Positions 8,241 through 27,062 of a DNA stretch of 27,314 bases are shown here, in pieces. The notes below the pieces were generated by a model. It saw nothing but the letters and a program-made list of their open reading frames with translations. It was not told where the DNA came from and ran no database searches. A program made the position numbers and the translations under genes. The stretch is from a virus. The stretch spans positions 1 through 27,314 of the IMG/VR virus record IMGVR_UViG_3300011114_000392; one strand, written 5' to 3'. Position 1 is the stretch's first letter, and each line of letters opens with the position of its first letter.

Positions 8241-8594
8241 TCAATAAAATATGTGGTTACCTATCGCTACTTTAACTGGTTTATCATTGGCCCAAACAGG
8301 TTTTACATTTCTGCTATGAAAATATGTAGCGCCTTTTGTTGGGTCTTTTACTTTTCTATGCAGCACATTATACGCCATAGATATATAAGGTTGCAACTGA
8401 ATTGTGGAAGCTAATTGAACATTTCCAATAAAGGAAAATTGTTTTGGTTTGTATAGTTCGCTGCATACATTTTTAGTGCTTTGCGCTCTATTAAGTAATA
8501 CGTACATCACAGCAGTTTGACCAGAGGTTGGCTCTCCTCTACTTTCATGGTAGGCCGCCAAAGCCAGGCACAATGCTGCCGTTTCTATTCCCAT
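8241..8594 (-). CDS. SleB-like cell wall hydrolase (117 aa)
   Basis: The cell wall hydrolase (Hydrolase_2, SleB/CwlJ) core is clear: ALAAYHESRGE with the catalytic Glu at about residue 17, GQTAVMYVLLNR, then a C-terminal GATYFHSRNVKPVWA block. Proteins of this family cut peptidoglycan. No separate signal peptide or cell-wall-binding domain is seen; the hydrophobic start belongs to the first helix. AGGAG precedes the start, which overlaps the previous stop (TAATG). It sits in the early leftward operon, far from the lysis cassette, so it is probably not the main endolysin. Confidence 0.85.
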   Translation of the reverse strand: MGIETAALCLALAAYHESRGEPTSGQTAVMYVLLNRAQSTKNVCSELYKPKQFSFIGNVQLASTIQLQPYISMAYNVLHRKVKDPTKGATYFHSRNVKPVWANDKPVKVAIGNHIFY

Positions 8595-8863
8595 TATGAG
8601 TCTCCTTTTAAAGCATAATACTCATTATGTCCAAACTTTTGAATGAGCATGTTTTCAATATGGTGTCTATCATATCCTGATAAGATAAGACATATATCAG
8701 CTACAGGGTTTTTTTCTTTCATAAGCCAATTGTAAGACACCTTCCTACTATGCGTATTAGTACCGCATATCTCTGTTATGGCCTGGATCATCACAGCCAT
8801 TAATAATTTTCCTTCTGGTGTTAGTATAAGTTCTGATCTGAGTGACTCCTTTACCTCTATCAT
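8594..8863 (-). CDS. Small protein, unknown (89 aa)
   Basis: Not recognised. It is mostly helical (TPEGKLLMAVMIQAITEICG) with a C-terminal half HHIENMLIQKFGHNEYYALKG. AAGGAA lies very close to the ATG (2-3 bases), so the start is not certain. It is the last leftward gene before the pqqA interruption; whether it is transcribed from upstream across pqqA or from its own promoter is unclear, since no clear promoter is visible in 8864-8961 on the minus strand. Confidence 0.55.
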   Translation of the reverse strand: MIEVKESLRSELILTPEGKLLMAVMIQAITEICGTNTHSRKVSYNWLMKEKNPVADICLILSGYDRHHIENMLIQKFGHNEYYALKGDS

Positions 8864-8885
8864 TTCCTTACTTTCTTTTAATGTT

Positions 8886-8915
8886 TTTACTGATAGCGAA
8901 AATGCACTTTATAAC
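8886..8915 (+). promoter_or_regulatory. Candidate promoter for pqqA
   Basis: TTTACT (8886-8891, 4 of 6) and TATAAC (8910-8915, 5 of 6) are spaced 18 bases apart on the plus strand, about 45 bases before the pqqA start. A second -10-like GATAAT follows at 8917-8922. A plus-strand gene among minus-strand genes needs its own promoter, which makes this region a sensible place for one. Confidence 0.35.
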
Positions 8916-8961
8916 TGATAATGAAATGGCAATATTGCATTAACTAACCGAGGAATATATT

Positions 8962-9033
8962 ATGTGGACAACTCCAGCAGTTACAGAAATGCGTTTTGGC
9001 TTTGAAGTCACAATGTACGTAATGAACAAGTAA
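8962..9033 (+). CDS. pqqA: PQQ precursor peptide PqqA (23 aa)
   Basis: A 23-residue peptide that matches PqqA in length and in every key position. It opens MWTTPA, then has the R-x-G-F-E-V-T-M-Y core (RFGFEVTMY) with Glu15 and Tyr19, the two residues that PqqE joins and that become pyrroloquinoline quinone. Glu15, Tyr19 and a 23-aa length are the same as in Klebsiella PqqA. GAGGAA lies 6 bases before the ATG. No other pqq gene is in the window, so the peptide must be handled by host PqqD/E and later enzymes. It lies alone on the plus strand among minus-strand genes, with a hairpin after its stop, like a separately acquired cassette. PQQ is the cofactor of methanol and other alcohol dehydrogenases, so a role in host energy metabolism is inferred. 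Confidence 0.9.
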   Translation: MWTTPAVTEMRFGFEVTMYVMNK

Positions 9034-9042
9034 TATGTGTAT

Positions 9043-9071
9043 GGGGATGCGCCTTAAAACGGCACATCCTC
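9043..9071. terminator. Hairpin at the convergent end of pqqA and the SSB-tail gene
   Basis: An 11-pair stem (9043-9053 with 9061-9071, one C/A mismatch and one G-U pair) encloses a 7-base loop that contains the stop codon of the minus-strand gene. It lies 10 bases after the pqqA stop. Neither side has a strong U-run, so it may be a weak two-way terminator or an RNA-stabilising end. Confidence 0.4.
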
Positions 9072-9290
9072 TTCACCTTCAACTGCCGGCCCACTTGGAG
9101 CATACTCGCCTTTTGGTGTAATTTTACCTGTATACACCGGTCTTTTAGATCCTTCTTCTACTTCATTCTTAAACAATGCTAATGTATACTCTTTACCTTC
9201 TACATTAAGCATTAATGAAATATATTTATTTCCTGTTTTACTTTCACGTAGCCAACCTGCAGCTCTATTACTATTATCATATTCAGCCAT
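9054..9290 (-). CDS. DUF736-like small protein with SSB-type acidic tip (78 aa)
   Basis: The core (AAGWLRESKTGNKYISL, VEGKEYTLALFKNE, RPVYTGKI) is a small all-beta, OB-like protein resembling DUF736-type phage proteins. The last residues, EGEEDVPF, copy the acidic D-D-x-P-F tip by which bacterial SSB binds its partner proteins. It sits directly downstream of the YqaJ exonuclease and ERF annealing genes, so a ssDNA-binding or recombination-mediating role is likely. AAGGAG precedes the start. It is shorter than bacterial SSB (about 110 aa or more for the OB fold), so it is not a standard SSB. Confidence 0.65.
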   Translation of the reverse strand: MAEYDNSNRAAGWLRESKTGNKYISLMLNVEGKEYTLALFKNEVEEGSKRPVYTGKITPKGEYAPSGPAVEGEEDVPF

Positions 9291-25847: not shown

Positions 25848-27062
25848 ATGCCAGTACCAATGACGCTAGAGCAGCTAGACGTTTATGGTAGCTTGGAAAA
25901 TGTACCATATAGTTTAGATAATACATTTTATGATAATGGTACTACCATTTGTGGCCCATGGACACTAGACCAGTTAGACGCATTTGGTAGTTTAGATAGT
26001 TTAGCAATATCACTAGATAGTCCACTATGGACTACTGCTGCTTGTATAAATTTATCTACAGGTGTAATTACATCTGACGCAAGTCTTGTAGGTAATGATG
26101 TAAGAGTTAGACAAAGCACAGGCGCTATTACAGCAGACGCTACAGTTGCAGGTGATGGAACAAGAGTAGCTACCACATCAGGCGATATTACAGCAGATGC
26201 AACAGTTGTAGGCAATAATACTAGAATAAGATTAAATGACGGTGTTATTAATGCAGACGCAACTGTATCTGGTGATGGAACTAAAATAGCAACATCTTCA
26301 GGTGATATTACTGCTAATGCTGAACTTGTAGGTAATAATACAAGAATAAGACTTAATGATGGTTCAATTACATCTAATGCAATTATTACAGGTGATGGTA
26401 ATTTAATAGCTACCGGTAATGGTGCTATTACTGCTAATGCTCAATTAGAAGGTGAAGCTACTAAAATTACATTTAGTAGTGGAGATATTACAGGCTTTGC
26501 AACGCTATCTGGTGACGCAATAAGAGTATTAGTAGGGCAAGGTGAAATAAATGCGTTAGCAAGTGTTTCTGGAAGCCCTGACGCCATATATGTAAGCTCA
26601 GGATATGTATTATCTGAGGCTACAGTATCAGGTGATGGTATTCGTTATAGACTATCTTCAGGTGATATTACAGCAGACGCTACCATATCAGGTAGTGCAG
26701 ATAGAATTAGAACATTTGATGGTTCTATAGAAGGTTATGCTTTATTAGCAGGCTTAGGTGGTGTTGTATATGCAGGTAATGGAGCTATTACTTGTGAGGC
26801 AATATTATCCGGTAACCCAAATTCAATATTATTTGGCTTAGGAAGTATTACAGGTAATGCCACAGTAACAGGTTTAGGTAAGATATTAGGAGAAGAATGG
26901 TCTCCAGTCACTCCAGGATCAGAGTCTTGGAATGACGTAACACCAAGTAGCGATACTTGGACAGAAGTAACAGCAGGTGCAAGTACATGGACTGATATAA
27001 GTGTTGGTTCAGATACATGGACGGCATCAAGTTCAAGTAATGATACATGGGTAAATAGTTAA
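25848..27062 (+). CDS. Repeat-rich tail fibre protein (404 aa)
   Basis: Three repeat layers are visible. Residues 5-62 hold two copies of a TL(E/D)QLDxxGSL(E/D)xxxxSLD unit. Residues 70-349 hold 14 tandem 20-residue repeats of the type SSGDITADATVSGDGTRIRL, likely a beta-solenoid. Residues 350-404 hold 10-residue repeats with one Trp each (SWNDVTPSSD, TWTEVTAGAS and so on). Adjacent repeats also share DNA-level similarity. AAGGTAAATT precedes the ATG. The context, between a tail-associated gene and another fibre, makes a receptor-binding or fibre-shaft role likely. Confidence 0.8.
   Translation: MPVPMTLEQLDVYGSLENVPYSLDNTFYDNGTTICGPWTLDQLDAFGSLDSLAISLDSPLWTTAACINLSTGVITSDASLVGNDVRVRQSTGAITADATVAGDGTRVATTSGDITADATVVGNNTRIRLNDGVINADATVSGDGTKIATSSGDITANAELVGNNTRIRLNDGSITSNAIITGDGNLIATGNGAITANAQLEGEATKITFSSGDITGFATLSGDAIRVLVGQGEINALASVSGSPDAIYVSSGYVLSEATVSGDGIRYRLSSGDITADATISGSADRIRTFDGSIEGYALLAGLGGVVYAGNGAITCEAILSGNPNSILFGLGSITGNATVTGLGKILGEEWSPVTPGSESWNDVTPSSDTWTEVTAGASTWTDISVGSDTWTASSSSNDTWVNS
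26055..26894 (+). repeat. 14 tandem 60-base coding repeats (20 aa each)
   Basis: Residues 70-349 of the tail fibre divide exactly into 14 units of 20 residues with a conserved G-x-I-x-A-x-A-x-x-x-G core. Several adjacent units are close to identical at the DNA level. Confidence 0.85.
26895..27059 (+). repeat. Five 30-base Trp repeats (10 aa each) at the fibre C-terminus
   Basis: Residues 350-404 fall into five 10-residue units, each with Trp at position 2, plus a short sixth piece ending at the stop. Confidence 0.85.

Follow-up and report, generated by a model that had tools for sequence, protein, structure and literature searches.

Structure of the pqqA locus

The DNA analyzed here, hereafter the window, is a viral record of 27,314 bases and of unknown completeness. 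Positions 8962-9033 on the plus strand encode a 23-residue peptide, MWTTPAVTEMRFGFEVTMYVMNK, followed by a stop codon, and this peptide was identified as PqqA, the precursor of the cofactor PQQ, because it exceeded the curated cut-offs of both PqqA models by a wide margin: 41.6 bits against 21.1 for PF08042 (E 1.1e-10) and 44.8 bits against 20 for TIGR02107 (E 7.2e-12). The tryptophan-proline start, the G-F-E-V-T-M-Y core and the cross-linked pair Glu15 and Tyr19 are all present, and a ribosome binding site, GAGGA, is located at 8950-8954. The same contig encodes terminase, portal, head protein, DnaB-like helicase, Erf and RecE-like exonuclease, and therefore this is a phage gene. A 404-residue protein made of repeats of the type GDITADATVSGDGTRI, possibly a tail component, is encoded at 25848-27062.

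Both neighbors of pqqA are on the minus strand, and thus the gene sits alone. The divergent neighbor at 8594-8863 is of unknown function. The convergent neighbor at 9054-9290 is a probable single-stranded-DNA-binding protein; it had no PHROG match, but the gene in the same place of MW202481 is annotated as putative SSB. After pqqA, a hairpin is found at 9043-9071 (+), GGGGATGCGCC-TTAAAAC-GGCACATCCTC, whose right arm overlaps the 3' end of the convergent gene. The hairpin folds in all relatives but one, and its stem changes on both sides between relatives (GCC/GGC and TCC/GGA); the exception, the contig L274, has a canonical intrinsic terminator instead.

Upstream of pqqA, a plain sigma-70 scan found no promoter, although the first-pass annotation had proposed a likely one. 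The case for a promoter rests on a conserved putative regulatory element, TTAATGTTTTTACTGAT, at 8878-8894 (+), 84 nt before the ATG, and on a putative -10 hexamer, GATAAT, at 8917-8922 (+), 39 nt after the start of the element, the latter being an inference from spacing. The element is nearly invariant in the relatives. A palindrome, GCAATATTGC, at 8929-8938 (+) lies near the predicted 5' end of the transcript and is invariant in the relatives. Two imperfect copies of ACTGATAnnGAAAw, 24 bases apart, were also noticed at 8890-8927, between the element and the ribosome site.

A Methylophilaceae host is likely, because the contig matches one Manatee Spring phage at the DNA level over 4% of its length and its helicase is closest to that phage and to the OM43 phage Venkman. 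The motif EMRFGFEVTMYVMN[KR] drew only Methylophilaceae, or records named at a compatible higher rank, among the listed genome hits.

Conservation and distribution of phage pqqA

To examine whether the gene is stably maintained, we collected 25 contigs through the nearby helicase gene and not through pqqA itself. All 17 contigs that reach the spot carry an intact pqqA on the same strand, 2.6-3.2 kb before the helicase, and the other eight begin too close to the helicase to tell. Among the nine distinct sequences, pS was 0.169 and pN was 0.016, giving a pN/pS of about 0.09. In a separate lineage, selected by a P19250A gene, 57 of 62 contigs that extend far enough have pqqA, about 300-480 bases beyond the marker.

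We next searched 50,697 phage records with tblastn and found pqqA in P19250A, Venkman, MEP301, MEP401, MEP402 and four Melnitz isolates, i.e., in all nine methylophage isolate records that surfaced, and in the Manatee Spring phage. In the records inspected, the gene is unannotated or lies under a wrong-strand hypothetical ORF, and the papers on Melnitz, MEP301 and MEP401/402 do not mention PQQ genes in the phage genomes. Two Acinetobacter records were also hit, but these were set aside because the one inspected (CAKLQF020000010.1, named Acinetobacter phage MD-2021a) carries polyphosphate kinase and a complete pqqABCDE operon and is probably bacterial DNA. MEP301 DNA matches P19250A, MEP401, MEP402 and the Manatee Spring phage only over about 73-88 bases at pqqA, so otherwise dissimilar genomes share just this gene.

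Two scans of virus collections, together with the isolates and the helicase-selected contigs, gave 176 viral loci. These fall into 20 groups that do not share two proteins near pqqA, one of them holding 142 loci; because the loci are fragments, this is a rough lineage count. Both cross-link residues, E15 and Y19, were kept in 120 of 120 hits when the search left them free. Many phage peptides are identical to Methylophilaceae PqqA from residue 2 on. A comparison of the diversity of phage and host peptides (73 versus 12) is not valid, since the host scan was more restrictive.

Phage pqqA is usually a lone gene. Of 156 loci with both neighbors callable, 142 have no same-strand neighbor within 40 bases, and 72 of 174 have an intrinsic-terminator-like site within 90 bases downstream, against 3.8 in shuffles. 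A ribosome site such as that in the window was found in 146 of 149 phage pqqA genes, and inverted repeats just upstream of this site are enriched (arms of 7 or more in 46 of 150, against 13.6 in shuffles). PqqE and methanol dehydrogenase are absent from the window, and no other pqq gene was seen there, although PqqB, C and D were not searched by profile. In 51 pqqA-bearing virus records searched whole, PqqE had no match over the cut-off (0 of 51) and methanol dehydrogenase occurred in one. Weak PqqE-profile matches below the cut-off were found in large pqqA-bearing virus records (numbered G031, G010, G020 and L314:1338-2528 in our set), and one has a radical SAM protein (phrog_14086). A 72 kb pqqA-bearing virus record encodes, within 30000-49000, a PQQ methanol/ethanol-type dehydrogenase (TIGR03075) and, next to it, a 946-residue protein that we read as a formate dehydrogenase alpha subunit. 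While pqqA is commonly encoded with pqqBCDE, this is not required by the curated models, and the extra host copies are likewise solitary. Host genomes carry 1-12 pqqA copies, a multiplicity already noted in the literature (PMC4109929); of 23 host genomes, 19 have one PqqE, one has two, and none was found in three, which are small and may be incomplete.

Carriage is patchy in some other phages. At the tested spots, the gene is present in 10 of 45 Melnitz-like and 4 of 39 MEP402-like contigs, though it could lie elsewhere in the others. In T4-like Melnitz relatives, contigs with and without the gene differ by a clean insertion of roughly 140 bases, as counted from the alignment, which holds the element, the -10 region, the ribosome site and pqqA.

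An upstream element resembling that of host genes

Ordinary sigma-70 matches are no commoner upstream of phage pqqA than in shuffles, but an element with the consensus TTAATGATTTTCCTTATGG was found there, most often 38-39 bases before a TATAAT-like hexamer. With a matrix trained on these phage sequences, 79 strong sites precede pqqA and one lies elsewhere in 1.56 Mb of phage DNA, a count that is in-sample; with this matrix the site at 8878-8894 is the best of either strand in the window. The fair test uses a matrix trained on host sequences alone, with the consensus CTCATGATTTTACTTAG. This matrix finds the element before 77 of 81 non-redundant host pqqA genes and before 84 of 117 phage ones, against 1.5 in shuffles and 4.2 in random windows of the same phage DNA, and gives the site in the window a score of 12.7. 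Several phages with more divergent PqqA lack the element.

In 12 host genomes, a strict pattern gives 31 sites. Most of the 30 fetched lie beside a pqqA copy, and others precede pqqB or a cytochrome c with a glucose/sorbosone-type PQQ dehydrogenase, or lie by a Gly-zipper/pentapeptide pair. We read this as a host PQQ regulon whose regulator is unknown. Some copies of the element look like TAATGATAATCATTA, as in a Fur box, but this assignment was not adopted because the host sites identified lie at PQQ genes and the Gly-zipper/pentapeptide pair, and no iron-uptake gene was among those examined. From our reading of the sequences, an artifact of a neighboring gene's start is possible for the weaker sites of Venkman and Manatee Spring, but not for the main consensus.

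Discussion

The first-pass annotation, which had proposed a solitary phage-encoded PqqA relying on host PqqB-E, is supported, in that phage-encoded PqqA is established by the curated profiles, by the viral hallmark genes in the same contig and by conservation in every relative that covers the spot. It missed the upstream element shared with the host, the spread across unrelated phages and the precedent of 2020. In what we consider the likely explanation, a phage of Methylophilaceae carries a complete, lone pqqA gene, with an element resembling those before the host's own pqqA genes, a -10 site, a strong ribosome site and, in many relatives, a terminator. In the infected cell it would make the PqqA peptide, which host PqqE/PqqD would cross-link at Glu15-Tyr19 and the host pathway would turn into PQQ; the absence of PqqE from pqqA-bearing virus records, and the several pqqA copies beside usually one pqqE in hosts, fit this view. 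Because PqqA is consumed one per PQQ, adding only the substrate gene is the cheapest way to raise or protect the PQQ supply and so keep methanol oxidation, the host's main energy and carbon source, running. Expression, modification by host PqqE, regulation by a host factor and the benefit to the phage are inferred, without transcript, peptide or PQQ measurements. In addition, PQQ is bound tightly by dehydrogenases, and thus the need for new PQQ in a short infection is not obvious.

Other explanations appear unlikely. The peptide might be a competitive decoy that occupies PqqD/PqqE or the processing protease and lowers host PQQ, slowing methanol metabolism, since it would bind the same partners and a lone substrate gene fits either direction of effect. 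However, a decoy would be free to lose the reactive residues, yet these are kept in all 120 unconstrained hits; many phage peptides are identical to host ones from residue 2 on, and the same kind of element precedes them as precedes the host's own copies. It is even less likely that the selected part is the element, titrating a host regulator as the phage genome multiplies with the peptide as a passenger. The strong enrichment of the element before phage pqqA, and its presence before host pqqA and pqqB, would fit this view, but the coding frame itself is under purifying selection and the element hardly occurs away from pqqA in phage DNA. Recently captured host DNA without function, or host contamination in viral contigs, could account for the peptides shared with hosts, but this is the least probable and already disfavored, because the gene lies inside isolate genomes, is maintained at one place across relatives, shows the low pN/pS and has clean empty sites in relatives.

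Viral PqqA has been reported before. The Lake Baikal methylotroph virus VP_266, a virus of Methylophilaceae, has a pqqA proposed as an auxiliary metabolic gene (PMC7678222), but that is one T4-like metagenomic virus that also encodes methanol dehydrogenase, while here a small phage has no dehydrogenase and belongs to a class where lone pqqA is widespread and carries a host-type upstream element. A reservoir study of 2026 lists pqqA among viral genes (PMC13188868). The extra solitary pqqA copies of Methylophilaceae (PMC4109929) have the same peptide and the same kind of upstream element but are chromosomal rather than phage-borne. In comparison with cyanophage psbA-type auxiliary metabolic genes, the product here is a 23-residue substrate peptide, not an enzyme subunit, and the upstream element resembles that of the host genes. 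We found no report of pqqA in cultured methylophages, of its breadth or of the shared element, in a literature search that did not cover subscription papers and preprints, and the wide spread, invisible to gene callers, and the shared host element appear new.

It is somewhat more likely than not that phages of methylotrophs have repeatedly acquired a minimal unit of ~140 bp, the host PQQ-gene element plus pqqA, so that the phage copy answers to the host's own PQQ regulator; a substrate-only viral metabolic gene, missed by gene callers, would then be nearly universal in some methylophage lineages. Methylophilaceae phages are widespread in lakes and coastal seas, where their hosts oxidize methanol with PQQ enzymes. 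A metabolic gene of 72 bases, present in all nine methylophage isolate records that surfaced and not annotated in those inspected, suggests that peptide-sized auxiliary genes are systematically missed, and the shared upstream element gives a direct handle on an apparently undescribed PQQ regulon of the hosts and on whether phages are run by host metabolic regulators.
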